Source of the DNA: Sacculina carcini
Taxonomy: Eukaryota > Arthropoda > Thecostraca > Sacculinidae
Direction of reading: 5' to 3'
Assembly: GCA_916048095.2 (NCBI GenBank)
Contig: OU696579.1
Location: forward strand, 4,999,998-5,063,997
DNA: 64,000 nt
Part shown: positions 2,991 through 55,146 of the stretch, piece by piece
Position numbering within the stretch: the first letter of the stretch is position 1
Layout of the letters: each line of letters begins with the position of its first letter
Notes under the pieces: generated by a model
Database searches by the model: none
What the model saw: the letters and a program-made list of their open reading frames with translations, nothing else
Told to the model about the DNA's origin: nothing
Program-made: the position numbers and the translations under genes

Positions 2991-3065
2991 CTATCCTCTT
3001 TTTCCTCATTTTCTCACCCCTCTCAATCTATCTCTTCATCACCTCAGTCATCATCTTCACCACCT

Positions 3066-5948
3066 ATGTCTTCATCTCCGGTCAATCTTGTTCTTCCCTC
3101 TCCTGGATCAGAGCGAATGTATCGCGTCTCCATTGGTTTTGTAAATATTAGATCGTGCCGACATAAAACCGATCATATCTTAAACTTCTGCTCTTCTTAT
3201 GGCCTTTCCATTCTCTGTCTCGCTGAAACTTGGTTACTTGAGTCAGATGTATCGCTGTTTTCCTCCAACGTATCACCATTTAATTTTTTTCACAAGGCTC
3301 GTTCTAATTGTAAATCCTCTGGTGGCGGCGTTGGTTGCATTTTCTCAAACTCTCTCTCCATTTCCCCTATCTCTAGTTTGATTCCCCCTCCTTCTTCATT
3401 TGAATTTCTAGCCCTATCTCTTCATGTTCCTAACCACTCTGCATTCTGCTTACTTATATTATATCGACACAATCATACCGGCACTTCTCCGTTGTTCCTT
3501 GATGAATTTTCCCCTCTCCTTGAGGCTGTCACTACGTCTTTTTCTAGCAATTTCTTGATTCTAGGTGACTTCAATTTTTGGACTGATTCTCCCTCCCGTA
3601 ACCCCTACTGCTTAGGCTTTCTCTCTATGCTTGAATCTCATGGTTTGTTTCTTTGCAACTCTTCTCCTACTCATACCTCTGGCCATACCCTTGACTTAAT
3701 TCTGTCTCCGTCGCCTTTCATCTCTTCTGATCGCCATCCTCCGGACGTTCTCACCATTCCTCCAGATCCGTCAATCTCTGATCACAGTCTCCTTTTAACC
3801 TCAATTCCGTTTTCTTCTCCTCCCGTTAATTCTTCTTTCACTTATCGTAACTATAAGAAATTTGACCCATCCTCGTTCCTATCACTCCTGGATTATTTTC
3901 TTCCTATCCATTTTCTGTACTCACTTTCTCCTGCCGAATTATTTCCGTGTTTGTCTGCTGCTCTTACGTCTATTAATGATTGCATTTTTCCCCTTCGGAC
4001 ATGCGCTTCTCTTTCTCCTCGCCTTCCTCCTTGGTTCAATTCTAATCTCCGTAGCCTTAAATGTTCTCAGCGCCGTCTCGAACGTTGTTGGCGACGCTCT
4101 CGTTCTTCATCTGATTGGCTATCGTTTTGCTCGGCTCGATCATCTTACATTTCTGCCCTCTCTCTCGCCAAGTGTAACTTCTATAAAACTCGTCTTTCTT
4201 CTCTTTCTCGCTCTCCCAAATCTTTATGGGCTACTTTGAATTCTCTCCGTGGTCTCCGTTCGCGTTCTATTTCTTCCACTATAACAGCCTCACAATTTTC
4301 TACCTTCTTTGAGGATAAAGTCAATTCGTTGCTTTCCGTTATTCCTCCTTCATTATCTCCTCTCAGACACATTTCCTCACCTGATCATTTTTCATCTTTT
4401 AATCATCTTAGTGTGACTGACTTAACTGCCCTTATCTCGTCAACTAAATTGTCGTTCTCTCCTTCTGATTCTATAAATTTTAAGGCAATTTCTGAATTGA
4501 TTCCTTCCCTTTTGCCCTATTTTCTTCATTTGATTAATAGTTCTTTCCTCCATGGCGCTTTTCTTGCTGATAAACATGCTACAATCTACCCTATCCTTAA
4601 AAAACCCACGTTAGATCCAACTGTTATTAAAAATTATCGGCCTATTTCTCTTCTCAGCTTCCCTTCCAAACTTCTTGAATCTGCCATCTCTTCTCAACTT
4701 TCTCCCTTCATTAACCAATTTCTTGATCCTTACCAATCTGGCTTCCGTCCTTCATATTCCACTCAGTCTGTTCTTATCTCTGTAACCAATGGCGTTTTAT
4801 CCCACTTCTCTTACCGTCGGTCTGCCTTGCTTGTTCTCCTTGATATGTCTTCTGCCTTTGATTTGGTTAATCACTCTATTCTTCTTCGTGATCTCTCTCA
4901 TCTTGGTATCTGCTCTAGTGCTCTCTCCCTTCTCAAATCATATCTCAGTGGTCGGACTTATGCTGTGAAATTTAATTCCTATGTCTCTTCTTCGGTTGCT
5001 CTACGTCATGGTGTTCCACAGGGCTCCATTCTTGGGCCTTTGTTATTTAATCTGTACATGTCTTCTCTTTGTCCTATTCTTCGTAAACACTCTATAAGTT
5101 TTCATATTTATGCTGACGATATTCAGTTTTACATCCCGCTTCCTTTTCATTCTCCTTCCCTGCTATCTGACGTGCTTTCTGATATTTCTTCTTGGGCTGC
5201 AGCTCGCAATCTTCTCATCAACACTTCAAAGACTGAGTTTCTCCCTCTTCATCCTCCGCGCATTAGTCCTCCGCTGCTCTCAGTTCCTCTAGCCGTTACC
5301 GTTCGAAATCTTGGTATTATTGTTGATTCTTCGCTCTCCTTTGTAGATAACATTCGCTCCGTCGCACGCACTTGTCGTCTGATCCTACGTTCACTCTATC
5401 CCATTCGTCCCTGTCTCGATCAACCTTCATCTATTAAACTTGTTAATTCTCTTATACTCTCTAGATTAGACTATTGCAACTCACTATACTTTAGCTTACC
5501 TCGTTCTTCCCTAAAAATACTACAACGTGTTCTTAACCAATCTTGCCGATTTGTTCTTCACCCTACTCCTTGCCGTCATACCTCCAGTTTTCTATTTAAG
5601 TTTCGTTGGCTTCCAATTGTCTCTCGTATCCACTTTCGCCTTTGCTGTCTAATCTTCAAACTCCTTCATGATCCTAGTCAACCGCCCTACCTAGTCAGTC
5701 TTTTAACTCGTTCTGATAATGTTTCTTCTCGTAGACCTGTTCCCCTCATCTGTCCTCGGGCCACTAATGAATCTTCGTGGTCCTCTAAATCTTTTACTTT
5801 CTTCGGTCCGCGTATCTATAATTCTCTTCCTTCTCATATTATTTCATCTTCTTCCTACCGCATGTTTGCTTCCCGACTTCAAAATCACCTTTTTGACATC
5901 TCGTTTGATCCTGCTTCTCACACTCTCACTCCTTTCGCCAAACTATGA
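3066..5948 (+). CDS. LINE A ORF2: apurinic-like endonuclease plus reverse transcriptase
   Basis: A 960-codon ORF, about usual for CR1/L2-type ORF2. The N-terminal endonuclease (residues about 20-260) shows VGFVNIRSC, LAETWL, LGDFNFW and a terminal SDHSLL block, matching the APE nuclease fold that nicks target DNA. The reverse transcriptase (about 500-780) shows NYRPISLLSF, LLDMSSAFDLVNH, GVPQGSILGPLLFNLYM and the catalytic FHIYADD. A conserved C-terminal domain follows (SRLDYCNSLYF, WSSKSFTFFGPRIYNSLP). It starts 75 bp after ORF1. All key motifs are present and the frame is unbroken. Assignment to the CR1/L2 group rather than another Jockey-superfamily clade is by motif resemblance only. Confidence 0.92.
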   Translation: MSSSPVNLVLPSPGSERMYRVSIGFVNIRSCRHKTDHILNFCSSYGLSILCLAETWLLESDVSLFSSNVSPFNFFHKARSNCKSSGGGVGCIFSNSLSISPISSLIPPPSSFEFLALSLHVPNHSAFCLLILYRHNHTGTSPLFLDEFSPLLEAVTTSFSSNFLILGDFNFWTDSPSRNPYCLGFLSMLESHGLFLCNSSPTHTSGHTLDLILSPSPFISSDRHPPDVLTIPPDPSISDHSLLLTSIPFSSPPVNSSFTYRNYKKFDPSSFLSLLDYFLPIHFLYSLSPAELFPCLSAALTSINDCIFPLRTCASLSPRLPPWFNSNLRSLKCSQRRLERCWRRSRSSSDWLSFCSARSSYISALSLAKCNFYKTRLSSLSRSPKSLWATLNSLRGLRSRSISSTITASQFSTFFEDKVNSLLSVIPPSLSPLRHISSPDHFSSFNHLSVTDLTALISSTKLSFSPSDSINFKAISELIPSLLPYFLHLINSSFLHGAFLADKHATIYPILKKPTLDPTVIKNYRPISLLSFPSKLLESAISSQLSPFINQFLDPYQSGFRPSYSTQSVLISVTNGVLSHFSYRRSALLVLLDMSSAFDLVNHSILLRDLSHLGICSSALSLLKSYLSGRTYAVKFNSYVSSSVALRHGVPQGSILGPLLFNLYMSSLCPILRKHSISFHIYADDIQFYIPLPFHSPSLLSDVLSDISSWAAARNLLINTSKTEFLPLHPPRISPPLLSVPLAVTVRNLGIIVDSSLSFVDNIRSVARTCRLILRSLYPIRPCLDQPSSIKLVNSLILSRLDYCNSLYFSLPRSSLKILQRVLNQSCRFVLHPTPCRHTSSFLFKFRWLPIVSRIHFRLCCLIFKLLHDPSQPPYLVSLLTRSDNVSSRRPVPLICPRATNESSWSSKSFTFFGPRIYNSLPSHIISSSSYRMFASRLQNHLFDISFDPASHTLTPFAKL

Positions 5949-10077: not shown

Positions 10078-13000
10078 TCAAGTGGTGGAGGGGGCGCTGT
10101 CGGCTCTGCAGACGTAATCGCTCAGATGCGACGGTGGTCTGCGTGTTCGGGCGCTCCGGCGGAATTGCGGGGTTCGTGAGGCTTCCGATGTACCGCCCAC
10201 ATTCTCCCCCGGCGGCGGCGGCGGTGATGCGGGTCTGCTTCTGGTCTCCTGCGACGTTAGCGGCGCCGTGCCAACAGATGGCGGCGGCTGCACTTCGAGC
10301 GGCGGCTGTACCACGGGCGAGGGTGTGTTGGCTGCTGGTCGCAGGTGTCTACGGTTGCGCCAGTAGAGACCGCCGTGAGGCAGGCGCACAGCGTACTGGC
10401 GGCGACGGCCAGTCATGGCGACCACGCCAGTCCGGTCCCAGCGACCGGATGTCGGGTCCTGGAGAGCCACCGTAGTGCCGGGCAGCAACGGCGGCAACAC
10501 CTTAGCCGACCGGTTGTATTGGGCGACCTGCTTGTTGTGTAAGCTCGCCGCTCGCCGGTCGCACTCAGCGGTGGGCGGCTGCCACTCCGGCAGAAACGAG
10601 CGTGGATGCGCGGGAACGGCGGACGACACGGGGCGGCCGTACAAAAGCTGCGCGGGGGAGCGACCATCGGCACCCGGCGCGTTGCACAGCTCCAACAGAC
10701 CGGCGACAAAGGCGTCTGTGTCGATGTTCCCGTCGTGCGCCGCCTTCTGAATGAGCCGCTTCACCCGTTTCACGGCGGACTCAGCGTGCCCATTAGAAGA
10801 CGGGAAGTGCGGACTGGAGACACGATGGCGTATGTGCCAAAGTCGCAGAAATTCGGCCGTGTGGCGCGCCGTGAACTGTGGACCGCCGTCTGACGACAGT
10901 ATGGTCGGAACCCCCGTCATGGCGAACACATGTCGTAGCATCTTCACCAGCTGATGAGCCGAGGTGTCACGGCCACAGTCGAACACCAGTGGCCAGTTGG
11001 AGAACCGGTCCGCGCACACGAGGTAGGTCTTCCCTGCGTGTTGGAAAAAATCCGCGGACACCGATTCGAAAGGACGTGTCGGGTGCGGTTCCGTCAGGTA
11101 TGGCTCTTTTTGCTGGCTGTCTTTGTACTGCAGACATTTTCGGCACGATGCTACGGCAGTGGCGATTTCGTTGTTCAGGCCCGGCCAGAAGACAGTTTGC
11201 CGTGCGCGTTGCACAGTCCTGGCCTGCCCCTGGTGACCGTCGTGGAGCCGACGGAGGGTGTCCTTCCGCAAACACCTGGGCACAAGCAGGCGGCAGCCGA
11301 CCAGGATCAGCCCATGGTCCGCAGTGAGCTGGTCGCGCACGCCCCAGAATGGGTGGAGACTGGCGGGCAGCAGATGTTTGTGCTGAGGGAAACCGCCCAG
11401 CACGTACGTCATCAATTGGCGACACTCATCGTCGGCCAGAGACGCAGCTCGCACCGCCTCCAGGGTGGTGTCAATCGGTGACGTGCGATGACCCAGGTCG
11501 TCTGCGTCTGTGAACGCGTCCAGCGTCTGGACGAAGAATCCAGACGAGCACTCGTCAACGTCAGCGTCAGCATCAGCAGGCTGGGAAGGTGCGCGCGACA
11601 GAGCGTCGGCGATGTTGTGCTTTGCACCCGGTCTCCAGCTAGCGACAAAAGTCAAGTGCAGCAGACGCTGTCGCATACGTTGCAGGCGCGGGTTGGAGAT
11701 GTCTCCGAGTGCCTTCTCGTTCAGTATCGGAACGAGAGGCTTGTGATCGGTGACCACACTGAACGTGGGGAGGCCAGCCAGATACTGATGGCATTTCTGA
11801 CATGCCCACACAACTGCCAGCATCTCCAACTCACACACAGCATACCTGCTTTCGGTGTCGGACACAAATCGCGACCCACACTGGATCAGCTGCCAACGGC
11901 CTTGATCATCCCGCTGGCGAAGAACGAATCCGAGACCTTTCTCACGTGCTGCATCCGTCTCCAGCATTGTGGGCCGCGTTGGGTCGAAGTGACCAAGCAC
12001 AGGAGGGCTGGCCAATGCGCGTTTTACGGCCGTGAAAGCAGCGTCGTGTTGTGACGACCACTGCCACTCGACGCCTTTGCGGAGCAGCTGGCGCAGGGGC
12101 TCAGCAGCGGAGGCGATGGAGTCCGAGAAGTCACCGAACTGGTTCGCCAAACCGAGAAAGGACCGCAGGGATGTAAGGTCCGTCGGCGCGGGAAATTCTG
12201 CGAGGGCTCGAATTTTCTTGTGGTCGACGGTGAATCCAGAGGCGTTGATGTGGAATCCACAGAAATTGGCGGAAGTGGCGGCGAACATAAATTTTTGCAG
12301 GTTCAACGTAACGCCGGCGTCGTCGAAGCGTTGTAGCAGCTGCCAGACTCGCTGCAGATGCTCGTCGTAGCTGGCGGTATACACCAGCACGTCGTCCACG
12401 ATCTTGCAGGAGTCGGGTAGGCCAGACAAGGCGACGTCGCCGCGTCGGTTGAACTCGTCGCCGCTGGAGACCAGGCCCATAGGCGCGCGACCGAACCTGA
12501 ATCGGCCCCACGGGGTGATGAAGGTGGTGAGGTCTCGGTGCTCGCGCCGCAAGGGCACCTGAAAGTACCCTTGTAATGCGTCCACCTGGGTGAACCACCG
12601 ATTGCCGAGGCCCATACTGCTGACAGCCTCCACAGGCGAGCGAACCGGATGCGTAGGCCGGCGAACGAAGCGGTTGAGGCGTGTGAAGTCCACCGTGAGT
12701 CGGCAGCCGTTTGGCGTGCCATCTGCCTTGCGCTTGCCGACAACGACGATCGGTGAGCACCAGTCTGTCGGGTGGGAGACCGGCTCGATGACGCCCTGCT
12801 GCTGAAGCAGCTCCAGCTGCTGTTGTGCCTGGGCGCGATGACAGAACGGCACGGAGCGGGGAGCCGTCACGTTGTACGGCACCGCTTCATCGCGCAGATC
12901 GATCCGCATTGCCCCGCCTTTCATCTCCCGGAGAGGACCGTCCGTGGAGAACACACGAGGGAAGGCCGCTATAAGCTGCTCGCTATGCGAACGACGATCC

Positions 13001-14478
13001 GCCGCTGTTGGCTGAGCTGTGTTGGTCCAGCGCGGGCATTGCTGAGGTGTGGCTGCCGGTCCAGCGGTCACCTGCTGCAGGTGCTGTTCGCGAGACATCT
13101 GCCGAGGGAATGCGCGGTGCAGTAGACGCAGCTCCACTGCGTCTCGCCAGCAGAGCAGAGCACAGCGCACTGACGGCACCACGTACAGAGTGGAGCGGCA
13201 GGAGGCATCACCGAGTCGCAAGACTGCCTCGCACGTGCCCAGACACCGCAGTAACTGACCGTTGGCGACCCGCAAGCGTGACCGCGGTGGGCGCAAACTA
13301 TTGTTGGCCACTCCAAGTTGCTGCGCAATCCCAGCGTCAATTACCGACACATCGGCGCCGGAATCGCAACGCCACTTAACCTCGCGCGGCGCGCGGCCTT
13401 CTGCAGAAACGGTGATGCTAATAGCGGTTACGCGCGTGTGTTTAAAGTCATCAAAAACATCGCCGATATACGAGCACAAAGCAGGTGTATTGACATTCAC
13501 AACACCGTCAACATCATCATCAGTGTCATCGGCGACGTCTCTGACAAAATTGTCCCGACGACGGCCAGCACGGGACTGTGATGAGCGGCAGACGCGCGCG
13601 TAGTGCCCGCGCTTTCCGCACCGACGACACAAGCTCTCCGCGGCGCGGCACGGGGCCGACTGGTGATGCTGCCCACACCGCACACAAGGGGCGGAGCCAT
13701 CGTCGCGATCTGACTGCCGGCTCAGTTGACTGCGCATGCGCGGCTGCTGACGGCGTACAGCCGCGACCTCTGTGCGGGGAACCGGGGAACCAGTCACATC
13801 GGCCGAGGCGCTTCGCATAGCTGCAGCGTTGAAGCGGGCTGACTCAGCCGATTGGCACATTTTGAGTGCCTTGTCCAACGACAGGTCCCTGTGCGCGACT
13901 TGCAGGAGCTGGTGCAGAGCGGCAGAGTCGGACGTCCCCATAACAAGCTGGTCACGCAAACGCTCGTCGCGGCAGGCAGCGCAAAAATCGCAGCTGGCAG
14001 CAATTTCTCGCAGCGAGCGCAAGAATTCGCCCACATTTTCGCCGTCCTGCTGTCGACGGGCGAAAAAGCGCCGGCGTTCCACCAGCACATTCTGCTGCGA
14101 CTGCTGATGCTCCTCCAATAGGCGGATGCAGGCGGGCAAATCAGCCGTCGCCGGCAGCATCAGTGAGTGGCGGATGACGCGGCACCACTCGTCATCCAGC
14201 AGTGTCGTGAGCAGCGCTTGCTGCTGCGCAGGGCTCAGGCTATCACTGCCTGACAGTGTGGTGTGTGCCAGCACGCGCTCCTTCCAGGAGGTAAAGTCGG
14301 CTGCCGATGCTGCGTAGGCCAGACGGGCTGGTGGCTGACAATGAGCCATGGTGTGTGGGGCGACTGCGGACGAGCTGGCGGGGGCTGCCATTGCAAGCTG
14401 CTGGCGAGCGAGCTGAGTCACCAACTCTGTGAGCTGGTCCAGCTTCTGCTGTTGTTCGTCTCGCAGCGGCTGCGCCAT
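10078..14478 (-). CDS. Gypsy-1 gag-pol polyprotein
   Basis: One 1,466-codon frame carries all parts of a Ty3/Gypsy polyprotein in order: gag (residues about 1-260), two zinc knuckles (about 264-296, CVRCGQHH and CRRCGKRGHYARVC), aspartic protease (CDSGADVSVIDAG at about 368-380), reverse transcriptase (about 520-760, with IVDDVLVY), RNase H (about 830-950, LETDAAREKGLGFVL), and integrase (about 1070-1300, starting with a zinc-binding HDGHQ...CRKC region and including the core). The C-terminal tail is proline-rich. Gag and pol are fused without a frame change, as in several Gypsy lineages. The initiator ATG uses the last base of the 5' LTR and the first two of the primer-binding site, so there is essentially no untranslated leader between them. 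It looks whole. Confidence 0.95.
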   Translation of the reverse strand: MAQPLRDEQQQKLDQLTELVTQLARQQLAMAAPASSSAVAPHTMAHCQPPARLAYAASAADFTSWKERVLAHTTLSGSDSLSPAQQQALLTTLLDDEWCRVIRHSLMLPATADLPACIRLLEEHQQSQQNVLVERRRFFARRQQDGENVGEFLRSLREIAASCDFCAACRDERLRDQLVMGTSDSAALHQLLQVAHRDLSLDKALKMCQSAESARFNAAAMRSASADVTGSPVPRTEVAAVRRQQPRMRSQLSRQSDRDDGSAPCVRCGQHHQSAPCRAAESLCRRCGKRGHYARVCRSSQSRAGRRRDNFVRDVADDTDDDVDGVVNVNTPALCSYIGDVFDDFKHTRVTAISITVSAEGRAPREVKWRCDSGADVSVIDAGIAQQLGVANNSLRPPRSRLRVANGQLLRCLGTCEAVLRLGDASCRSTLYVVPSVRCALLCWRDAVELRLLHRAFPRQMSREQHLQQVTAGPAATPQQCPRWTNTAQPTAADRRSHSEQLIAAFPRVFSTDGPLREMKGGAMRIDLRDEAVPYNVTAPRSVPFCHRAQAQQQLELLQQQGVIEPVSHPTDWCSPIVVVGKRKADGTPNGCRLTVDFTRLNRFVRRPTHPVRSPVEAVSSMGLGNRWFTQVDALQGYFQVPLRREHRDLTTFITPWGRFRFGRAPMGLVSSGDEFNRRGDVALSGLPDSCKIVDDVLVYTASYDEHLQRVWQLLQRFDDAGVTLNLQKFMFAATSANFCGFHINASGFTVDHKKIRALAEFPAPTDLTSLRSFLGLANQFGDFSDSIASAAEPLRQLLRKGVEWQWSSQHDAAFTAVKRALASPPVLGHFDPTRPTMLETDAAREKGLGFVLRQRDDQGRWQLIQCGSRFVSDTESRYAVCELEMLAVVWACQKCHQYLAGLPTFSVVTDHKPLVPILNEKALGDISNPRLQRMRQRLLHLTFVASWRPGAKHNIADALSRAPSQPADADADVDECSSGFFVQTLDAFTDADDLGHRTSPIDTTLEAVRAASLADDECRQLMTYVLGGFPQHKHLLPASLHPFWGVRDQLTADHGLILVGCRLLVPRCLRKDTLRRLHDGHQGQARTVQRARQTVFWPGLNNEIATAVASCRKCLQYKDSQQKEPYLTEPHPTRPFESVSADFFQHAGKTYLVCADRFSNWPLVFDCGRDTSAHQLVKMLRHVFAMTGVPTILSSDGGPQFTARHTAEFLRLWHIRHRVSSPHFPSSNGHAESAVKRVKRLIQKAAHDGNIDTDAFVAGLLELCNAPGADGRSPAQLLYGRPVSSAVPAHPRSFLPEWQPPTAECDRRAASLHNKQVAQYNRSAKVLPPLLPGTTVALQDPTSGRWDRTGVVAMTGRRRQYAVRLPHGGLYWRNRRHLRPAANTPSPVVQPPLEVQPPPSVGTAPLTSQETRSRPASPPPPPGENVGGTSEASRTPQFRRSARTRRPPSHLSDYVCRADSAPSTT

Positions 14479-14674
14479 GTACGATATATTATAGCAACGG
14501 ATCTATCTCACCGAGCACTCAACACAACAATAACAATAACAATACAACAACAATAGAATGATACAACGCCACGACACACACACCACCACTGCTGTACACA
14601 CACTGGCTGACGGCCGTTAGCGTCACCCACGCCTAATCCCCTCGCGCCCTCTGGCGGTGTAGGCACACACTACA
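14478..14674 (-). repeat. Gypsy-1 5' LTR
   Basis: This is the upstream 197-bp LTR on the minus strand, with one difference from the partner at 9873-10069. As the 5' LTR it should contain the element promoter, but I see no unambiguous TATA box position. Confidence 0.95.
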
Positions 14675-22079: not shown

Positions 22080-22363
22080 TATACTGTTTCTACACTTGTG
22101 GCGCAAGTGTCGTATATGACTGTGGGGCTGGTTGGTGTTGTTTATATGTATTAATGATAACTTTCCAAATAAGTTATATGGTAGGATTTAATTATATTGA
22201 GTGTTTGTATTTGCTAATCAACCTTGTTAATGTACATTACTAACCACTATCATTTGGGTTATGTTTCAGGCATTGAATGTTGGTGTCTTATTGCTATGAA
22301 ATAGAGTGGCACGTTTCACGGTTGTTTTCATTGTAACGGCGATGACGGAAAAGGAATAGTAAA
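22080..22363 (+). repeat. Gypsy-2 5' LTR
   Basis: About 284 bp beginning TATACTGTTTCTACACTTG and ending AGGAATAGTAAA, with short inverted ends TACT/AGTA. The same sequence is rebuilt by joining 26611-26772 to 30917-31039. Confidence 0.85.
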
Positions 22364-22393
22364 ACTGGCGACGAGGTAAAAAAAAATATCCAA

Positions 22394-25300
22394 ATGGCTC
22401 AAGGTATCCCAAATATACCACCGCTGGAGTTCGACGAGAACAACCAAACCAGCGCGTGGAGAGAGTGGGTTGAACATCTTGAAGACGCATTCACGGCGTT
22501 TGAGATCACAAGTGACAGCAGGCGACGAGCCTTACTGCGATTTTACGGAGGTACGAAACTCAAAGACATTCTGAAAACACTACAACTTGAGGTGCCAACG
22601 AACCAAACCGAACCTATGTACAAAACTATCAAGGTAGCGCTGGATGAATATTTTCAAGAGCGTACAAGTGAAGTATTCGAGCGACACAAATTCCGTAACC
22701 TTACACAAGAAATGGGCGAAAACACCAACACGTTCGTGACAAGGTTGCGAACACAGGGAGCTAAATGCAATTTTGGTCAATATAATCTGGACATGGCGAT
22801 AATTGACCAATTAGTGGAGACATGCACCTCGAACACGCTAAGGCGCTCATACCTCAAAGAACCTGATTTGACAGTACAGACTGCACTACGATTGTCCTAT
22901 ACACACGAGGCAACAGAATCGCAGGCACAACAAATAGAGTGTACAGAGCAAGACACCAGCATTCATAAAGTGCCTAGATATAGGCAACGCCCGAAATCTG
23001 AATAGGAAAAAGACAGAAAGAAGCATGAGGGTGGGGACAAACCAACTGATTTGTCACGATGCTTCGGATGCAATGGTACAGGACACCGGCACGGTCAACG
23101 AGATTGTCCGGCGTTTGGAAAGAAGTGTCATCATTGTGGCATACGAAACCATTTTGCCACAGCATGCCGTAAGAAGTTACAACAGGCTAAACAAATACAA
23201 GCAATAGATGACACATCGTCTGGCAAGGAGAACAACGGCGTTCGACGCCTCTCAGCGACGCGTAGCAGATACACGGACGACGAGTCCAACGTCTTTCGCA
23301 TAAATACCAAAAGTTCGGGCACGAAGCGCATTCTAGTGGACAACGTGGCGGTCCGTATGCTGATCGATTCGGGAGCTAGCGTTAACTTGTTGGATGGCAG
23401 AACGTTTGAGCATCTGGCGGATGCAAAACCAACGGTCGTCCTTAGCCGCTCAAAAGTTGTACCCAGATCGTACGGCGACACACCGATTCCGCTTCGAGGA
23501 GAATTTTTTGCCACACTCACATATGGGTCCAGACGAATTATACAGAAAATGTTGGTAACCAAGGCACATGACAGTGGGAATATATTGGGACGACAAGCGT
23601 GTTTGGAACTGGGTTTACTGTCTATGCCTCGAATCGACAGTGTGAAAGCCGAGGAAATCCCAGAATCAACAAGAAGTATTTTGAACAGACATCTACCTGC
23701 ACTCGAAGGCATCGGGCGGATGAGGAATTTCCAATTGAAACTCGACATAGATGAGAAAGTCAAACCGGTAGCGATACCACCGCGGCGAGTGCCATTCCAC
23801 CTAAGAGGGGCCGTGGAAGAAAAAAATCAAGACATGCTGAAAAACGACATCATCGAAAAGGTAGAGGGACCCACACCATGGGTTTCACCATTGGTCACCG
23901 CGCCCAAACCTAACGGTGACATCAGAATCTGTGCAGATTTGCGAATGGCGAACAAAGCCGTAAAGCGCTCTCGCTACCCGATTCCTACAGTAGAGCAAAT
24001 CCTCAGCGAGGTCAGTTGAGCCAAGGTGTTCTCAAAAATTTATTTGAATTCCTACTATCACCAGATAGAACTGTCACCGGAGTCCAGAGGAATCACCACT
24101 TTTTCGTGCGATTCAGGTATCTATAGATACAAAGTCTTGGTAATGGGCATAACTTCGGCAGCAGAAGAGGGACAGCGCTTACTCCAACAAATACTGCAAA
24201 AATGTCCGAACTGTCGCAACGGAGCAGATGACATTCTGATTTGGGGGAAAAACACACAGGAACACGACAGAGCTCTTGAATCCGTTCTCCGTACCTTACG
24301 GGAAAATAATCTGTCCATCTCTCAGGATAAGAGCATCTTTCACGTGGAAGAAGTCATATTTCATGGCTTTTCAGTTTCTAGCAGCGGCGTCAAGCCGACA
24401 ATGTCCAAAATCGTAGCAATCCAAGGGTTCGAACGACCGAAAACACCGCAAGACGTCAGGAGCTTCATGGGGCTCATAAACTACCTGACCAGATTCATTC
24501 CGCGACTGGCAACTAAGAGCGAGCCACTGAGACTACTAACCAGACAGAACACCGCGTGGAGATGGACAGAGAAGGAAGAAAAATGTTTTCACGAACTGAA
24601 AGAGGCGGTAAAGAAAGAGGCACACCTTATTCATTTTGACCGGAAACGTCGGACATCACTCATTGTGGATGCGATCCCAGTTGGCTTAGGGGCGGTACTC
24701 TGCCAGAACCATCATGGCGATCTAAGGCCAGTGAGCTACGCGTCCAGGACGTTAACCGACGTTGAACGAAGATATTGCCAACTTGAAAAAGAGGCACTGG
24801 CGATTGTGTGGGCTTGTGAGCGATTTCATTTGTACCTATACGGAGCAGAATTCGAAATTCGAACCGATCACCAAGCGCTCACATCAATCTTCAAACCAAC
24901 AGGTAATCCTTCAGCACGCATATTGCGGTGGATATTACGTATGCAGCAGTATGACTTCACCATTCGTCACATCAACGGGCGAGACAACCCTGCCGACGTG
25001 TTATCAAGACAGCCTGTACAATATCACGACAAAATCTCAGCAGAAGAAGAAATAGCTGAGGGGTTCGTCAACTACGTCGTCGCACACAGCGTACCGGTGG
25101 CGCTTACTCTGTCTGAACTGGTCGAAGAGTCACAGAAGGATAGCACATTACAGGCAGTGGAGAGAGCCATACAACACGGTGATTGGGAAGACGAACGAAT
25201 TCAAGCATTCAAAAAAAATCGCGATGAACTCACATCTAAAAGGGGACTGATCATTCGCGGATCCAAGATCGTCATCCCATCGTCGCTTCGCAGGCGCACA

Positions 25301-26575
25301 CTTCAACTTGCCCACGAAGCTCATATGGGAATAGTTAAAACCAAGGCACTATTGCGGACAAAAGTATGGTGGCCTAAGCTGGACCAAGATGTGGAAAAAT
25401 TGGTAAGTGCGTGCATACCGTGTGCAAGCTTGGATCAGCGAAAACGTACGAACCCATTGAATACGTCGATGATGAGCGGGGCGTGGGAGGTTATCCACGT
25501 AGATATTTGCGGGCCATTTCCCAGTGGAGACTATGTAGTTGGCATCGTAGACGCGGGTTCCAGGTGGCCTGAGGCATCAGTCGTGAGAGCCACCGACACT
25601 CACACGGTTACGGCGGTGATTGAAAACTGCATCTACACTCACGGAGTGCCAGAGGTGATTGTATCAGACAACGGACCACAGTTCCGGGGCAAGGAGTTCG
25701 CGCTATTTTGCAAAGAATGGGGTATACGGCACAGAAAGGTTTCACCGTATCATCCACAGAGTAATGGCGAAGTGGAAAGGTTTTTCTCTTCGTTACTCAA
25801 AAACGTTCGTGCATCCAATACAGAGACGAGAAACTGGAAACGATTGTTGGGAATGTTTCTTTTGCAGTACCGAAATACGCCACATTGCACCACGGGAGGA
25901 ACACCCGCACAACTACTGATGGGTAGAAGTTTGAAAATGAAATGGCCTCAACTCCAATCGAACACGGAAGGGTGGAGGTGGAGAAAAGCGCGTAAGACAG
26001 ACCGGGAGGAAAAATAAAAACTGAAGGCGCGCACAGACAGGAAGAATAGAGCCAGGTCGAGCGATATCGCGAAAAACGACAGAGTCCTGCTTCGCCAGAC
26101 AAGAACGAACAAACTCTCGCCCCGATATGACCCACGACCATGGACGGTCACCGAAAGAAAGGGAAGTACCGTCATAATTCAAAGAGAAAATCAGCAGAAA
26201 CTGCGTGAAACATCACAACTGAAAAAAGTTCCAGACAGCCGGTGGGAGGAAGGCGGCACGTTTACAAGCGACGGGCTCGGTCCAATTATCGGTACACAAG
26301 AAGATCGAACCGGAACGACGGACGAGGCAACACACATACACATGGAAAGTTCAAGAGGCGTCAACGGGTTCGAGCAACAAAAACAAACAAGGCGGAACAG
26401 ATCAGATCGCGACGGAGGCAACATAACGGATATTGGTAATGAGGCGGTGACATTATCGGACTCGTCAGAAGCGATTGGTTTCCCCAACAGACGACGGAGA
26501 ACCATAAGAAGGCCACAGAGATTCTGCGATGGCGCTACTGAGGCAGATATTGAAGACGCTTTTCTATCATCCTGA
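22394..26575 (+). pseudogene. Gypsy-2 gag-pol region, fossil
   Basis: In order: a gag-like protein (about 22.4-23.0 kb), two CCHC knuckles (about 23.05-23.17 kb; CFGCNGTGHRHGQRDC and CHHCGIRNHFATAC), aspartic protease (LIDSGASVNLLDG near 23.36 kb), reverse transcriptase (about 23.7-24.5 kb), RNase H (about 24.6-25.0 kb), an H2C2-type zinc-binding region and integrase core (about 25.2-25.95 kb; VIVSDNGPQFRG), and a basic tail. The coding capacity is interrupted by roughly three breaks, so this copy is not functional as it stands. It is a different lineage from Gypsy-1 and much less GC-rich. Confidence 0.88.
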
Positions 26576-46789: not shown

Positions 46790-49623
46790 ATACCGCGCCA
46801 CATCTCTGATGCCTGCTCACCGTCATTAGCTTTACTAAACATTCGTTCAGCTCGAAATAAATCATCCTACATATCCGAACTCCTTATTTCACATAACCTT
46901 GATATTCTCTGCCTAACTGAAACCTGGCTTCTGGAATCCGACTCATCAATATTCTCCGCATCCATTCCTTCACATTATTCTTTCCAAGGCGTTCCTCGAC
47001 CTTTGTTTCTAAATCGCTCTTCAGGAGGTGGTATTGGTATCATTTATCAATCTAAATTGTCTGTTACTCGCTGTACACTCCTGGCCACACCACCTAGCTC
47101 TTTTGAAGTTATCTCACTTGTTATCAAAATTTGCTCGCACTGATGTTTGTCTTAACATTGTCTACCGCCATGACCACCACGGTTCCACTCCCAATTTTCT
47201 GTCTGAATTCCCTGTCCTTATTGAATCCTTAATCTCGCGTTTCTCACACTCATTTATTATTCTTGGTGATTTCAACTTTTGGCCTGATTCTCCTTCAAAA
47301 AAACCTTATACCAATGAATTCCTCTCTATTATAGACTCTCACACATTATATTTTTCTCCGCGTGTTCCTACGCATACTGCCGGTCACATCTTAGACTTAA
47401 TTATTTCACCTTCTCCGTCTCATCACTCTGAACCATCCCTACCGGTTGTCACTGTTCTTCCCCCTGATACAAAAATTACCGACCACAGCCTCCTTCTTAC
47501 TTCCATTCCGCTTCCTTCCGTCACTTCCTATACCAAAAACCTTCTCTTTCCGTGATTACAGGGCTTACAACCCAGAACGTTTTACCGCTTACATCCACCA
47601 TTATCTATCTCCTTCTGCATATTTGCATCTTCTTCCCACTAAACTTGAATCCTTCTTCAATTCTCAGCTTACGCTTATTGCTGATCAAATTTTTCCACTC
47701 CGCACCATTCGTGGTAATAAACGGCCACCACCATCTCCCTGGTCCTCACCATTCCTGGTCTCACTCCAGCGCTCCCAACGTCGACTAGAACGACGCTGGA
47801 GACGCACCCGGTCTCCTACTGATTGGTCTGCATTCACTTCTTTTCGCGCTCATTACATTTCCTCTCTCCGTGCTGCAAAGGAATCATATTACTCTAATCA
47901 CATACCATCACTATTATCTTCCCCGAAATCACTCTGGTCAACTCTTAACTCTCTTCTAGGTCGTAAACCGAATCGTCCTGCGTCCACCATCACCTGTTTT
48001 GATTTTGCCGATTTTTTCACCGATAAGATCGTCGCTTTACGCACATCTCTTCCAACATATACAAACCGCGTCCTTCCCCCTGCCCCCGTATCTGGTTCAT
48101 TTACTGCTTTTAGCCATGTACCAATATCCACCACAATACGTCTCATCACTAACACCAAAAAATCATTTTGTCCTTCAAATCCAATTAATTTTGCCATGGT
48201 ATCTTCCTCTCTCCACCTTCTGGCTCCTATTCTGACACACCTTATAAATGCCTCTTTCCTTCATGGGACTTTTCTTACCAGTAAAAATGCCATTCTCATT
48301 CCTATTCTCAAAAAGCCTTTCCTTGACCCAAACATTCTAAATAGTTACCGACCAGTTTCACTTCTTCCATTCTCATCCAAAATTCTTGAGTCCGCCATTT
48401 ATCATCAAATAGCATCTTACCTCTACAACAACCGTCTTCTTGATGACCTACAATCAGGGTTTGCTCCTTATCGTTCCACTGAAACTGCTCTTGTCCGCCT
48501 TCATCACAATTTACTTTTTCATTTTTCTCAAAAATCTCCCGTAGTCATCACTCTCCTTGATATGTCATCCGCATTTGACCTTGTTGATCACAAAATTCTT
48601 ATTCAGGATCTCTTCTCCATAGGAACCTCTCATTCTGCTTTTTCTCTTCTCACTTCCTATCTCACTAATCGCTCCTACTCAGTTCTATTTGATAGCTGTC
48701 GGTCTCAAAATTTCCCTCTTTCATCAGGTGTCCCCCAGGGCTCATCACTTGGTCCTATCCTTTTCAACGTTTACATGACATCTCTATGTCCAATACTACG
48801 AAATTTATCTATTCCTTTTCACATATACGCAGATGACGTTCAGTTCTTTCTTCCTCTGTTTGAGCAAAACTATATTCCTCATATCATCAATAATATCTCA
48901 GCGTGGGCTTCTTCTCGTTGGCTCATAATAAATTCCTCAAAAACTCAATACATCGTACTTCACCCGCCTAAGATCCATCCTCCTCTATCTGACTTTCCTC
49001 TTTCCTCATCAGTACGTGACCTCGGTGTCTTACTAGATTCTCATTTGTCATTTCAAAAATATTTTACTTCTACAGCTGGCACCTGCCGTCTAATCCTTCG
49101 AAACATCTACCTCATCCGTCCCTACATTGATTCATCAATTGCACAATCTCTGGTATCGGCTCTCATCATTCCTCGTATTGACTACTGTAATTCACTGTTT
49201 CTTCATCTTCCACAGAAGTCACTCAACATTTTACAAACTATCCTTAATCAAGCCTGCCGCTTCATTCTTCGCCTTCCTCCGCATCATCCCACATCATCCA
49301 ATCTATGTGATCTTGGTATTCTTCCTATTCCTTATCGCGTTCAACACAAAATCTGCACACTCACCTATAAACTCTTGCATTCTCCTGACTCTCCACAGTA
49401 TTTACTTGAACTTCTTTCTCCACATCCGTGTCCTCGTGATACAAGACAAACTAAAATCCTTCTTGAACCTCGTTGTCACTGTGAATCTTCTTGGTTTACA
49501 CGCTCCTTCCAACACGCTGCTCCTCGCATATACAATAGCCTCCCATCTCACCTACTGTCCTCTCCCTCGCTTAAATCCTTCTCGAAACAGCTACATTCTC
49601 ACCTTCTTTCACAGTTGAATTAA
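46790..49623 (+). pseudogene. LINE D ORF2: endonuclease plus RT, two frameshifts
   Basis: Endonuclease motifs ALLNIRSARNKSS, LTETWLLESD, LGDFNFWPDSPS and TDHSLLLTSI; RT motifs SYRPVSLLPFSSKILE, LLDMSSAFDLVDHKIL, GVPQGSSLGPILFNVYM and FHIYADDVQFFL; C-terminal SWFTRSFQHAAPRIYNSLPS. Frameshifts lie near 47,130 (within the endonuclease) and near 47,550 (after it). From 47,560 the frame is open to the end, including a complete RT with intact YADD. Confidence 0.88.
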
Positions 49624-49800
49624 ACATATTGCATGTATTGAACTATTTGAATGCTGCTGTGCAATTTGATGGCTTGTATGTGTTTGTTTTTTAAATGTAT
49701 ATATGTGTATGTGTGTATATATATATGTGTGTATATGTATATGTTTATGTATATATATAGCCTGTTGGAGGCTCAATACATTGAATTGAATTGAATACAC

Positions 49801-49971
49801 CATTCTCTGTAGTGAAATTCAGAGACTAGTCCTTGCTTGCTGAAAATACAGAGATCCAGATGGCGTTGATGTAGCCTGGGGCTCAATTAGTGCAACTGCC
49901 CACTTTATCAGCATCAATGACACCTGAGCAAACACACTCGCATGCAATACGAAACGTATGCAAGTGTGTGT
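49801..49971. other. short unique segment left of the nuclease element
   Basis: It includes an imperfect hairpin, AACACACTCGCATGC against TATGCAAGTGTGTGTT (about 49930-49971), immediately outside the element border. Confidence 0.4.
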
Positions 49972-50003
49972 TAGTCCGGCAGCCAAAGCGATGATTTTTG
50001 TTT

Positions 50004-50612
50004 AACCTTGCAGTAGAGGTCCCATGAAGGGTTTTCATGGATTTGGTACCCCCAGACATTGTAGAATTCAAAACCAGAGGGTGCCAAGCTGGCACCTTTG
50101 GGCGTTTTTTGAAAATCGTTGATTTTTATGGTGCCCGCTACCCATCCTTTTTCGCGATATGCGAAAAACGAAAATATTCATATCTTCACCAATATAGCTG
50201 ATATAAATACAATTTTGGTATCAAATTGTATGTTTTCAGACATGAGAAATCCAATGAACACATTATTGTCATGATCTGAAATAGTCTTTATAGCCAAACA
50301 TCATAATTCTACCCCAAAACACCAAATGAAAACATAATTTTTTTCTGAATTATATATTTGATCTGATTTATGATGCATTTAACTGAAAATCAGTATAATA
50401 GGGATATCAGACATTATATGAACATCAGAAATGTTGGTGACAAACACCATAGAGACTGTATAAAGGATCTAAAAAATAATAAACAATATCTAAAGTCTAA
50501 GAAGCTTTGTTTCCATCATCGTCGTCATCATCATTTTCGACAACTACTTTAGTGTGCTCATTGCAGCAATCCAATCCACCTTCACAACTGCAAAATATTG
50601 TGCATGGAAGCA
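50004..50612. repeat. left terminal inverted repeat of the nuclease element
   Basis: It begins AACCTTGCAGTAGAGGTCCC and is matched in reverse by 52787-53398. It includes an inverted copy of the last codons of the nuclease gene (minus strand reads CTIFCSCEGGLDCCNEHT from about 50605 to 50540). Confidence 0.92.
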
Positions 50613-50735
50613 AGCATCTGATGAAAGCAAGACAACAAAACTCTGGGTAGATAACCTGCTCAAGCCTGTCCTGCTGATGATGTTGTTTTGTCGAGCTGAG
50701 AAGGAAGCAGATTGGGCACTTTTTCACGTATGCTG
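50613..50735 (+). pseudogene. nuclease gene, N-terminal segment in a separate frame
   Basis: This segment reads SDESKTTKLWVDNLLKPVLL then FCRAEKEADWALF, which corresponds to the N-terminal LW...ER-x-G-D/N-W pattern of the family. The frame then shifts at the T-run near 50,720-50,730, after which the family sequence continues in the frame of 50744-51556 (YAVEHMIPYFFSARHPNYAH). The true start is unclear: the frame is open back into the left inverted repeat. A single-base indel in a homopolymer is the simplest explanation. Confidence 0.55.
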
Positions 50736-50743
50736 TAGAACAC

Positions 50744-51556
50744 ATGATTCCCTACTTTTTTTCTGCGCGCCACCCAAATTATGCCCACTATGGGCTATAT
50801 TACCTTCGCTCACTTACAGCAATGCAACCAGACCTCTTGGAGAGATTCATGAAAGGAGAGCATGTCACCCGTCATACCCCAGGTGTATGGAACGGAATGT
50901 GGACGGACATGATGATCGAGACAACGTTCATGCGGTATGGAAAAGGACCCAATGGTATTATTGGTATCACACTCAAGCCAAACACGCTGAAGACCTGGGC
51001 CTTAAGTCTCCATGATTGTAGTGTACTAGCCAAAGACGTCTGTGATATGACCTCACATGACCAACATCAGCACCTTCACAAGGAAGAGATGAAAGCTCGG
51101 ATGGCATCAGATGCTGTGGACCGCAAGAAGATCAGAGAGAAATTACAAGTTTCTATTGATCCACTTGATCCATCCTCACACTCACATGGTGATCTTGTCC
51201 ACGTTGTGAGCGGTAGAATAACAACTGACCCAACAGTGAACGCTCATGAATCAGTATCAATAGGAACGCAGATGATGAAGCAATATGAAAGCACATGGTC
51301 TGGCGGTTTCCATGATACGCTTCCCAAGAAAGTGCATACACAAACAATCACCAAGAAGCACATCCAAGTTGGCAAAACGAAGGTAAATTACACCAATTTG
51401 ATATATTCACGCATCATTGGTCTGCATGCTTCTGGTCGAGAGATGAACCTCAATGAGGTTCTGATGTATGAACTGCCACCGATTTCTACTTCGATGTTCA
51501 CCGACAATGGCGAGATGAGATTAGCAAAAAATAAATCAACACTCAAAACATGCTGA
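50744..51556 (+). CDS. nuclease element protein, middle region (270 codons)
   Basis: The ORF opens MIPYFFSARHPNYAHYGLYY, then TPGVWNGMWTDMMIETTFMR, GPNGIIGITL, and ends NEVLMYELPPISTSMFTDNG before a lysine-rich tail. These match the N-terminal half of the uncharacterised family (HYARW..Y, a W..D..IE region, G..GIT, and a YEL.P.P.S motif just before the PIN-like domain). Function of this half is unknown. It overlaps the next ORF by seven bases in ATGCTGA, where the ATG starts the next ORF and the TGA ends this one. In relatives I recall the two halves as one protein, so the overlap is either a frameshift mutation, programmed frameshifting or stop-start reinitiation. Confidence 0.7.
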   Translation: MIPYFFSARHPNYAHYGLYYLRSLTAMQPDLLERFMKGEHVTRHTPGVWNGMWTDMMIETTFMRYGKGPNGIIGITLKPNTLKTWALSLHDCSVLAKDVCDMTSHDQHQHLHKEEMKARMASDAVDRKKIREKLQVSIDPLDPSSHSHGDLVHVVSGRITTDPTVNAHESVSIGTQMMKQYESTWSGGFHDTLPKKVHTQTITKKHIQVGKTKVNYTNLIYSRIIGLHASGREMNLNEVLMYELPPISTSMFTDNGEMRLAKNKSTLKTC

Positions 51557-52905
51557 AAATTGAGATAACTGGACGATCTGCACCCAAAGCGAACATTGTG
51601 ATCATTGATGGCTCAGCTGTATTGTGGGTGATTCACTGGCCAACACAAGGAACAGTCAAAGACTTCATTGACAATGTTGTATCATACGTAACAGCCAAGA
51701 TGAAAGAGGCTGACGTATACCTGATATTTGACCGATACGAAACTTACAGCACCAATGGAGTCACTCGTACTGCAAGAGGGAAGGAGGCAAGCAGACACCG
51801 CCAGTTGTCGCTGTCAACACAACTGCCTTCTCAGAAAGTGGTGCTAACAGTATCATACAATAAAGTACAGCTCATTGCTCTGATTGTAGACGCACTACAG
51901 ACACATAAAGACCGCATAGGTTTGACCAATCACAAACTAGTTGTCACAGGGCCAGATCCAGTACCGGTAGAAATAAGCCATGGCATGACCATCCATCGAG
52001 CAGATCTGAGCAACACTCAGGAAGAAGCTGATGTCATTATAATACTCCAGCTATTGTGTATTCTTGACAGCACAAGAGAGGGCAATAACAGTGTCAGCGT
52101 CATTTCAGATGACACTGATGTGTTCGTCTTATTGGTCCACTTTTATCATGAACCAAACCTCACTTGTAATTTGACGATGGAAGCTACATCCAAAGAAAGG
52201 AAGTCCATTGACATACAGGCAACAGCACATCGCCATAAAGACATCCCTGGCCAGCTGTTAGCTGGCCCTGCATTGTCAGGTTGCGACACAGTAGCTCAGT
52301 TATGGGGCATCGGAAAAACCAAAGTTGTGAAAGTTCTTCAGGCAGGTCATCAGTTGTTAGAACTTGGGAATACGATTGCCGCACTAGCTGATGTAATCCA
52401 AGAGTTCACCAAATTCATAGCTACTTGCTATGGGCATGTAGAAGCCGTGACGATGACCGATGTACGATTCAATATGTGGAAAGTGAAAACAGCAAATGCA
52501 AATATTGTTTCTGCACCAAAGCTCATGTCTCTCCCTCTGACCAATGAATCGTTCCATCAGAATGTTCTAAGAGCCCACTTGCAGTGCTGTATTTGGAAGC
52601 ATGCTGCGGAACCAAACCCACCAGAGATTGATCCGACCATGCATGGATGGCACCGAGATACCGTCAACAAGACGCTACAACCCACTATGCTTCCGCCCAA
52701 TACCTCTGCGGCACCTAAGGCCATTCTCAAACTGATCAAATGCACTTGTGAAAACTGCAAGTCAGCCAGATGCTCTTGCTCTTCTGCAATGCTTCCATGC
52801 ACAATATTTTGCAGTTGTGAAGGTGGGTTGGATTGCTGCAATGAGCACACTAGAACAGTTGTCGAAAATAATGATGACGACGAGGATGGAAACAAAGCTT
52901 CTTAG
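51550..52905 (+). CDS. FEN1/XPG-like (PIN-fold) nuclease with C-terminal CXC motif
   Basis: The 451-codon ORF shows the acidic pattern of FEN1/XPG-type nucleases in order: an N-terminal aspartate in NIVIIDGS (Asp20), EEADVII (Glu158, Glu159, Asp161), ISDDTDVFVLL (Asp187, Asp188, Asp190) and SGCDTVAQLWGIGKTK (Asp246 with a helix-turn-helix GIGK at 253-256). FEN1 has the equivalents CEAEA, EDMDCL and GSDY...GIGPK. Such enzymes cut flap or branched DNA using two metal ions. Residues 395-433 are cysteine-rich (CTCENCKSARCSC, CTIFCSCEGG), resembling tesmin/TSO1 CXC DNA-binding repeats, followed by an acidic tail. The last 39 codons lie within the right inverted repeat. All proposed catalytic acids are present. 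Confidence 0.8.
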   Translation: MLKIEITGRSAPKANIVIIDGSAVLWVIHWPTQGTVKDFIDNVVSYVTAKMKEADVYLIFDRYETYSTNGVTRTARGKEASRHRQLSLSTQLPSQKVVLTVSYNKVQLIALIVDALQTHKDRIGLTNHKLVVTGPDPVPVEISHGMTIHRADLSNTQEEADVIIILQLLCILDSTREGNNSVSVISDDTDVFVLLVHFYHEPNLTCNLTMEATSKERKSIDIQATAHRHKDIPGQLLAGPALSGCDTVAQLWGIGKTKVVKVLQAGHQLLELGNTIAALADVIQEFTKFIATCYGHVEAVTMTDVRFNMWKVKTANANIVSAPKLMSLPLTNESFHQNVLRAHLQCCIWKHAAEPNPPEIDPTMHGWHRDTVNKTLQPTMLPPNTSAAPKAILKLIKCTCENCKSARCSCSSAMLPCTIFCSCEGGLDCCNEHTRTVVENNDDDEDGNKAS

Positions 52906-53398
52906 ACTTTAGATATTGTTTATTATTTTTTAGATCCTTTATACAGTCTCTATGGTGTTTGTCACCAACGTTTCTGATGTTCATATAATGTCTGATATCC
53001 CTATTATACTGATTTTCAGTTAAAATCATCATAAATCAGATCAAATATATATTTAAGAAAAAAATAATGTTTTTATTTGGTGTTTTGGGGTAGAATGATG
53101 ATGTTTGGCTATGAAGACTATTTCAGATCATGACAATAATGTATCCATTCGACTCCTCATGTCTGAAAACATACAATTTGATACCAAAATTGTATTTATA
53201 TCAGCTATATTGGTGAAGATATGAATATTTTCGTTTTTCGCATATCGCGAAAAAGGAGGGGTAGCGGGCACCATAAAAATCAACGATTTTCAAAAAACGC
53301 CCAAAGGTGCCAGCTTGGCACCCTCTGGTTTTGAATTCTACAATGTCTGGGGGTACCAAATCCATGAAAACCCTTCATGGGACCTCTACTGCAAGGTT
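52787..53398. repeat. right terminal inverted repeat of the nuclease element
   Basis: It ends CCTCTACTGCAAGGTT and mirrors 50004-50612. Its inner 119 bp are the 3' end of the nuclease coding sequence. The outer part contains GCCAGCTTGGCACC, itself a short palindrome. Confidence 0.92.
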
Positions 53399-53420
53399 GT
53401 CTCACACTTCCGCCGGACTA

Positions 53421-54407
53421 TGTGCGTGTCGGTGTGTCAGTGTGATTGAGTGTCGAACGGCTTGATGTAGTGTTTGAGCAGAAATGATCAATCAATCTTG
53501 CTCTGTAACAAAATTGATTGGCACAACATGAATTGAGCTCTCTATTGAAAATGGCCTCGGGCAATATTTCAATGCGGTTTTTGTCGCTAGTAAACCCGCG
53601 TCTCGTAACCTCGTTGTCAACATATTGGGAACATTATTACAAACTTATTAAATATAAACTGATTTTGAACCGTAAATCAACTGTAAGCGGCTATCAAAAA
53701 CCAGCAGTCAAACAAAGCCAAATTATAATTACATTGTAAAAATATTTCTCACAAATATGCCGTTTTAAGCGAAAAAAACATAAAATGACATTTTTACTGA
53801 GAATATTACTCAAATATATAATTCTAGAGATTGCGCCCGGAATTTATATATTCTGTTAATAATTGTAATAGCACAGATCACGAATTCAACATGTTATGAT
53901 ATACTCAAACACTGCATAAATGTACAGCAATGTTCCTGATAGATTTTAAAGTCGAGATACCATGTGAGTAGCGCGGTGTTATAACCCTAGTTAACTACCT
54001 CGTTTGTCCTGCGGTCAGGGATAAGAATACTGCCGCCGTACCCGCTGCGTGTCGTGTAAGAGGCGACTAAAAGCGGACCATCTGCTTTTTCCCTTCCTGT
54101 ACTGCCATGTCCGATGGATGAGCGATAATCCAACAGGCATTCCCCTTGGATAACTGCAGCTGTCTTCTGTCCTATCCTTCTACCTGAAATATAAAAAGCT
54201 ACCGTATGTGTTGTGGCGGTGGTTTATTTGTTGTAATTCAATCGCTCCAAGCTAGGTTCACGTGCCATTGGTCTTTTGGTACGGTAGGATTATGCATACG
54301 TGTATTTCATATTCACATTTTCGGGAAATTATTCAACACAAATTGTTAAAATGGTGTCTGTACTGTCAAGCTCAAATGGATTGAAAGAATTCAAGTGGAA
54401 TTTCCTA
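53421..54407. other. non-coding, with one repeat-like hairpin segment
   Basis: Mostly AT-rich unique sequence. Around 54010-54180 is a GC-richer stretch with GTCGTGTAAGAGGCGACTAA, a hairpin-forming phrase I associate with dispersed repeats in invertebrate genomes but cannot name. No gene seen. Confidence 0.4.
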
Positions 54408-54600
54408 GAAAAACGTGTCTGATGGTACAGTATGTTTCCCGTTGCATGGGAGAAAAACGTGTCTGATGGTACAGTATGTTTTGTGTTGCATGTGAGAAAA
54501 ACGTGTCTGATGGTACAGTATGTTTCCCGTTGCATGGGAGAAAAACGTGTCTGATGGTACAGTATGTTTTGTGTTGCATGTGAGAAAAACGTGTCCGCTG
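54408..54600. repeat. 44-bp satellite with alternating A/B units
   Basis: AAACGTGTCTGATGG starts at 54411, 54455, 54499 and 54543, with a fifth, diverged AAACGTGTCCGCTGG at 54587: an exact 44-bp period. Units alternate between one containing TTTCCCGTTGCATGGG and one containing TTTTGTGTTGCATGTG, so the higher-order unit is an 88-bp dimer repeated twice. Confidence 0.92.
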
Positions 54601-55146
54601 GTCACAAGTTGCAGCTCGAACAACACAACAAATCTGCTGCTCACTAGAAAAACATCAAACGCAGCTATACATGCAGAATCGAATCATTAGATTATTGCGC
54701 CTCGAAGTAAAATTCTAGAATGGTACCACTACCAAGGGGCAGCACCAGGGGACAGGGGTTGTAGGGGTTTAACCCCCACCCCCAATGTGAATCTCTTGTT
54801 TATGAGGAGTTGATAGAAACATTTGGGGGCTTCAACCATCTGAGCTCCTTCTGGATCCATCAGTGTGTATCCTTTAAAGCGCATATAAAAATGTATATAT
54901 TATGTGTTCTAATACGCAGTGCAAGTGCATTAAAATGCACATGGATTTGTGGTCATTTAAACACGATATTATTTCCTGTTTATTTTCTCCCAAAATGTAT
55001 TTATACATATATACACCCAGATAGATAGATAAATAGATAGATAGAAATATAAATGGATAGATATAGCGGTTTAGAAGCAGACTTTAAATATTGTCATTGC
55101 CTACACCAGGATATAGCAAAATATAGTGATATATTGGAAAACTGTT
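54601..55146. other. AT-rich unique sequence with a (GATA)n run
   Basis: No gene recognised. A short GATA run lies at about 55020-55060. GGGGTTTAACCCCCACCCCC near 54766 is a small palindrome. Confidence 0.45.

Follow-up and report, generated by a model that had tools for sequence, protein, structure and literature searches.

Can a structure-specific nuclease move a transposable element on its own? The question is raised by a locus in the genome of Sacculina carcini (Thecostraca, Sacculinidae), within a stretch of 64,000 nucleotides of contig OU696579.1 (assembly GCA_916048095.2, positions 4,999,998 to 5,063,997, forward strand), hereafter the window. An element with terminal inverted repeats lies there, and an earlier note, made from the sequence alone, described its only gene as a FEN1-like nuclease with a CXC tail and raised the possibility that this nuclease mobilizes the element. 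We consider it very probable that the element is instead non-autonomous and derives by internal deletion from a DDE-type cut-and-paste DNA transposon fitting AcademX, and most likely the shortened form was moved in trans.

Copies and insertion sites in the genome

The element limits in the window are exactly 49972 and 53420, and its inverted arms (50004-50612 and 52790-53398, 609 nt each) are 97% complementary, which confirms the repeats of about 0.6 kb and the ends given in the earlier note. The outermost bases of both ends also match (TAGTCCGGC...GCCGGACTA); inside them, about 25 bp differ. TGT stands on either side of these ends. The left 32 bp, with up to three mismatches, were found in 45 copies in the host assembly (264 Mb, 43 contigs) versus none for the reversed control, a number far beyond chance. 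Search with the arms gave 40 matches among the best 40 of 99 candidates, representing at least 31 loci. The element is thus selfish and multicopy, as the note had supposed.

Of the 30 loci besides the window, the 20 ranked highest by the left arm were taken for study and, with the window and the longer element L032 described below, made up 22 copies; because of this ranking, the copies studied are those most similar to the window. Identical 3-bp flanks were present in all 19 copies examined for target duplication, a count that leaves out L010 (a duplicate of the window locus), L026 (short flank), and L027 (right end not located); L026, seen separately, has ATT on both sides. The lengths of 16 of the 19 sized copies were 3.44-3.51 kb, in a set picked by arm similarity and therefore biased to the short form.

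The joined flanks of the 19 insertions were searched against the genome, and since 40 of 7411 candidates were scored, the empty sites counted are a minimum. Of the 60 resulting rows, the best 40 each cross the junction with a single copy of the duplication (16 for L021, 11 for L028, 7 for L024, 4 for L012, and 2 for the window insertion), and the other 20 are weaker partial matches. Matching target duplications and empty sites, which the earlier note had asked for, were both seen, the latter as paralogous sites for at least five of the 19 insertions. One of these is the insertion in the window, whose empty site, L033, aligned at 194/198 and carries one TGT. Two pairs of copies, L012/L013 at different sites and likewise L022/L023, are 99.7% identical, which suggests that a transposase donor was active recently.

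The full-length parent and the deletion junction

In the window copy, a frameshift separates two open reading frames, ORF1 and ORF2. ORF1 is a C-terminal piece of a transposase-like region, and in L012 and L013 it is continuous with the nuclease encoded by ORF2, so that both window ORFs form a single frame (P0001), open over 720 codons counted from the first ATG; the nuclease is thus not the only gene. The open frame of L028 has 694 codons. Homologue search with the 720-aa frame gave 212 proteins (the 120 best were listed). One of them, the 1229-aa protein P0002, matches P0001 over 100% of its length at 93% identity and extends about 510 residues further at the N terminus.

Codons 1-464 of P0002 were compared with the genome, and the 10 candidates, all of them scored, gave seven matches at five places. 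The first place, L032 (C20:5909000-5916500), holds an element of 5761 bp, whose left end reads TAGTCCGG, whose right end reads ACGGACTA, and whose duplication is CAG. Its terminal repeats are 307 bp long at 88% identity; the left end is the same as in the short form, and the ends are nearly alike overall. L032 encodes P0002 codons 135-1229 in pieces at 71%-95% identity, including both the transposase-like and the nuclease regions, and is interrupted by frameshifts and stops; its first D motif lacks two residues. The second place, L034, is a 3834-bp element with the duplication GAT that represents a different deletion of the same parent: it consists of parent positions 1-561, about 60 unmatched bases, and parent positions 2565-5761. 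The remaining three places (on C9, C2, and C4) are distant, with 32%-34% identity. In a search with all of P0002, the best 38 of 182 candidates were scored.

Positions 645-3449 of the window element correspond to parent positions 2958-5761, and positions 33-641 to parent positions 5739-5130 in inverted orientation. Because the parent's own repeats measure only about 307 bp, the additional 300 bp on the inner side of the left arm were newly copied, in inverted orientation, from the right end. About 2.6 kb of the parent, with both conserved aspartate positions of the transposase-like region, are lost in the short form. The junction of this deletion and inverted duplication was shared by all 20 shortened copies examined (the window, L009-L026, and L028, with the duplicate L010 included) and not in L032, so that one founder most simply gave rise to all shortened copies. 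In this founder, the lost segment would have been replaced by the inverted 300 bp of the right end, extending the repeats to about 640 bp, and faulty repair of an excision gap with template switching is the likely route. The founder would then have spread to at least 19 sites with transposase made by full-length copies. The parts of the window copy are as follows.

49969..49971, unstranded: left target-site duplication TGT; a single TGT is present at the empty site L033
49972..50003, + strand: left-end-specific terminus TAGTCCGGCAGCCAAAGCGATGATTTTTGTTT; 45 copies genome-wide
50004..50612, + strand: left inverted arm, 609 nt; outer ~307 bp are the ancestral terminal repeat, inner ~300 bp are inverted right-end sequence and contain the last ~40 codons in antisense
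50497-50745: antisense cysteine-rich frame, overlapping the left arm
50602..50616, unstranded: deletion/inverted-duplication junction
50608..50769, + strand: remnant of the transposase (P0002 codons 465-517), not entirely in frame with the downstream sequence
50744..51556, + strand: ORF1, C-terminal piece of the transposase-like region and linker
50918-50920, + strand: conserved E of ORF1, retained in the motif MMIETTFMRYG
51535..51556, + strand: overlap of ORF1 and ORF2 in different frames; within the single open frame of L012 and L013
51550..52905, + strand: ORF2, 451 aa, predicted FEN1/EXO1-fold nuclease domain (residues 1-363) and C-terminal tail
52741..52836, + strand: CXC-like cysteine motif, C398-C429 of ORF2
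52790..53398, - strand: right inverted arm, 609 nt; overlaps the last 116 nt of ORF2
53399..53420, - strand: right-end-specific terminus, ending in ...GCCGGACTA
53421..53423, unstranded: right target-site duplication TGT

Several further features were observed around the copies. A second copy of window positions 49397-53997, L010 (C11:5307100-5311700), lies at a distance of 258 kb on this contig and differs at one of 4601 bases; it is either a recently duplicated segment or a duplicate produced by the assembly. Directly downstream of the window element are 44-bp direct repeats (54407-54626). Elsewhere in the window, four retroelements gave domain matches: 10084-14502 (-), 22346-26572 (+; the domain scan covered 24020-26014), 2991-5945 (+), and 47401-49620 (+). 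Two of them matched reverse transcriptase, RNase H, and integrase, and two resemble long interspersed nuclear elements (LINEs) with reverse transcriptase. At L023, the 25 bp outside the left end hold a second TAGTCCGG, as if the insertion adjoined a terminus-like sequence. The 6.4-kb copy L009 was considered as an autonomous copy and rejected, its added length being a nested LINE on the opposite strand; the LINE-type ORF (867 aa; L009:3270-5870, -) matches reverse transcriptase and endonuclease and interrupts this copy near codon 1045. Three loci, L029 (C1), L030 (C12), and L031 (C9), are distant relatives with 27%-32% identity that show similar sets of transposase and nuclease motifs; among them, L029 retains the cysteine tail. 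A scan of these three loci for inverted repeats showed no pair around the gene among the longest pairs listed, and element ends were not found; beside the gene of L029, not around it, lies a perfect inverted repeat of 383 bp whose arms are 511 bp apart (L029:800-2076).

Encoded domains and decay of the short frame

Search with P0002 residues 90-600 gave 230 proteins, and many of the 120 listed are 1450-1480 aa long. In P0002 and the 108 relatives newly listed by this search, D192 and D195 (109/109 each), D365 (109/109), and E568 (97/97) are invariant, with residues counted here and below over the sequences having a residue in that column of the P0002 alignment. Either D192 or D195 may be the catalytic aspartate of the first D motif. 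The predicted model of the relative P0004 contains strands 92-103, 109-121, and 229-236, helix 244-260, strand 266-270, helix 272-284, and strand 292-296; D96/D99 are located in the first strand, D271 directly after the fourth, and E474 in helix 469-474. This succession, which we take to be that of an RNase-H-like DDE core, supports such a fold but does not confirm it. Proteins 47%-48% identical (P0010 and P0179) are filed under a bacterial metagenome-assembled genome (Sedimenticola sp.) and most likely represent animal-host DNA in a symbiont bin.

ORF2 contains the motifs IIDG, FDRY, EEAD, DDTD, GCD, and GIGK in this order, with the conserved acids D20, D61, E159, D161, D188, D190, and D246. 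Among the relatives, the nuclease acids, in P0002 numbering, are D798 (81/81), D839 (77/77), E937 (63/63), D939 (63/63), D966 (61/62), D968 (61/62), and D1024 (63/63). In structure searches, the predicted model of ORF2 has the FEN1/EXO1/XPG fold, with rows at 8%-18% identity to nucleases of this type. Pfam gave no family at E up to 1 for either window ORF, including the tail of ORF2, and a weak 5'-3' exonuclease match in 2 of 30 relatives (best E 0.14). ORF2 is supported as a FEN1-like nuclease by its predicted fold and conserved acids, with the enzyme activity likewise predicted, and the PIN/FEN fold expected in the earlier note is borne out by the model and seven conserved carboxylates. Compared with FEN1/EXO1/XPG structure-specific nucleases, this low-identity domain differs in that it belongs to a transposon protein and is followed by a CXC-like tail. 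Nine cysteines of the tail (398-429 of ORF2) are each at least 90% conserved in a 69-sequence alignment, and seven of them are kept in 55-57 of 55-58 relatives in the P0002 alignment; one relative, P0045, is named after the tesmin/TSO1-like CXC domain in UniRef. Their pattern, which is presumably that of the tesmin/TSO1-like CXC motif, agrees with the tail that the note had recognized.

Selection on the frame was assessed in 19 shortened copies, leaving out L010 and L032. Variable sites numbered 110, 97, and 106 at codon positions 1, 2, and 3. Private changes comprised 160 replacement and 55 silent ones, a ratio of 2.91 versus 3.22 expected when the same spectrum was placed randomly (P 0.32), and 11 stops were seen versus 10.0 expected. 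Shared variants (85 replacement, 31 silent, 4 stops) gave a ratio of 2.74 versus 3.32 expected (P 0.25). The frame thus looks neutral, with no detectable purifying selection, the slight deficit of replacements not being significant.

A frame needed for the element's own mobility should show clear constraint, and its absence argues against self-mobility driven by the nuclease. If the FEN1-like nuclease alone moved the element by a flap-nuclease chemistry, the 3.4-kb form would be the autonomous unit. The prevalence of this form in the set and the open, nearly identical frames of L012 and L013 at different sites agree with such a view. Against it, the frame accumulates replacements and stops without a sign of selection, the 3.4-kb form derives from a longer one through one deletion junction, and this parent, with nearly the same ends, has a region of conserved D/D/E; moreover, 3-bp duplications are also made by the DDE elements Zator and AcademX, as described in PMC10045372. 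Since the full-length form encodes a transposase-like region together with the nuclease, the nuclease alone is very unlikely to move the element, and the proposal of the earlier note is not supported. That note had stated that a classical transposase in longer relatives, supplying mobility in trans, would refute its proposal; L032 largely provides one, its DDE fold being supported though unconfirmed.

Another conceivable reason for the persistence of the shortened copies is an effect of their truncated protein on the full-length transposase, which it would repress or assist in trans. Three of the 19 sized elements (L012, L013, and L028) indeed retain about 700 codons as an open frame, but a young age (L012/L013) or chance can account for this, and neither the replacement and silent counts nor the stop codons depart from neutrality. 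We regard this explanation as very improbable, too, by only a shade less than mobility through the nuclease alone. The longer D/D/E-bearing parent, the common junction, and the neutral-looking frame together make it very probable that mobility was supplied in trans.

Relation to AcademX and the possible role of the nuclease

The nuclease of AcademX is of the XPG type. The lineage belongs to the DDD/E DNA transposons, within the Academ superfamily (Kojima 2020, as cited in PMC10045372), and PMC10045372 gives it 3- or 4-bp duplications, as opposed to 9- or 10-bp in AcademH, and ties them to nuclease and helicase. The family studied here shares with AcademX, as so described, the 3-bp duplications (19/19 copies, as well as L026 and L034), a nuclease in the same element, here with a predicted FEN1/EXO1/XPG fold, a transposase-like region that is putatively of the DDE type, and a full form near 5.6-5.8 kb; Academ consensus elements in bivalves average 5565 bp (PMC10294476), close to the 5.76 kb of the parent. 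By duplication length, nuclease, and size, the family therefore fits AcademX, as judged by these descriptions. The window copy differs from AcademX in being a deletion derivative with approximately doubled repeats and no complete transposase. Recruitment of an extra nuclease by a DDE transposon has a parallel in the Kolobok lineages KolobokE, KolobokD, and KolobokP, whose nucleases, according to PMC9587614, are lambda-exonuclease-like, DEDDh, or His-Me finger rather than FEN1-like.

Several results weigh against this reading. The assignment to AcademX was made from described features of that lineage. No intact transposase copy was found in the assembly, where codons 1-464 match only the broken L032, the partial L034, and the three distant places. 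The P0004 model has a predicted TM-score of 0.58, with a local confidence (pLDDT) of about 60 in the E474 stretch and about 78 in the first D motif. Foldseek and VIA searches with the whole 1140-residue model (best 50 rows each) gave credible matches only to nucleases of the FEN1/EXO1/XPG/GEN1/XRN type, with no DDE chain among the matches listed; this is not evidence against the fold, because one domain filled the list. In a viral structure library, FEN/XPG/XRN-type nucleases, mixed with uncharacterized proteins, took the top rows. PDB profile searches gave one meaningless match at E 4.6 (A1) and none up to E 10 (A3). The only widely recurring Pfam label among the relatives, at E up to 1, was DUF6589, a domain of unknown function (22/30, best E 5.4e-6), below the cut-off in every case with a score shown; the protein database lists it for P0094, P0096, P0141, and P0223. 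Finally, the pooled dN/dS of the short frame was 0.84 (0.82-0.87 in three parts), slightly below 1, yet within the neutral simulation.

The same deletion could have arisen in a parent of another or undescribed DDE superfamily. The reliance on descriptions leaves room for this origin, as does the fact that part of the region has only the DUF6589 label, a name that did not occur in the literature searched, where CXC domain, PIN domain, transposon, and transposase were also not found together. The 3-bp duplication with a nuclease and the element size, in the descriptions cited above, favor AcademX, and we consider a different superfamily unlikely, although considerably less so than the two explanations discussed in the previous section.

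In the proposed derivation from an AcademX-like transposon, the full-length parent, 5.76 kb long with terminal inverted repeats of ~307 bp and a 3-bp duplication, would encode one long protein with a D/D/E transposase-like core, a FEN1/EXO1-like nuclease, and a CXC-like cysteine motif in this order. The D/D/E core would be the catalyst, and the nuclease may help to process ends or strands during excision. More speculatively, and with a low likelihood in our estimate, the FEN1/EXO1-like domain could be a second catalytic subunit, which cuts the non-transferred strand or resolves hairpins formed by the long inverted repeats, with the D/D/E core joining the transferred strand. A comparable division of labor exists between TnsA and TnsB of Tn7. 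If this is true, a flap nuclease stands in place of TnsA and would set the length of the 3-bp duplication.

The locus illustrates that a lone copy can mislead, since what looks like its sole gene encodes the C-terminal end of a larger transposase protein. Within one genome, the parent at full length is documented together with two distinct deletion derivatives, with empty sites, and with neutral-looking decay of the leftover frame, so that the part played by the nuclease domain in this DDE lineage becomes testable.

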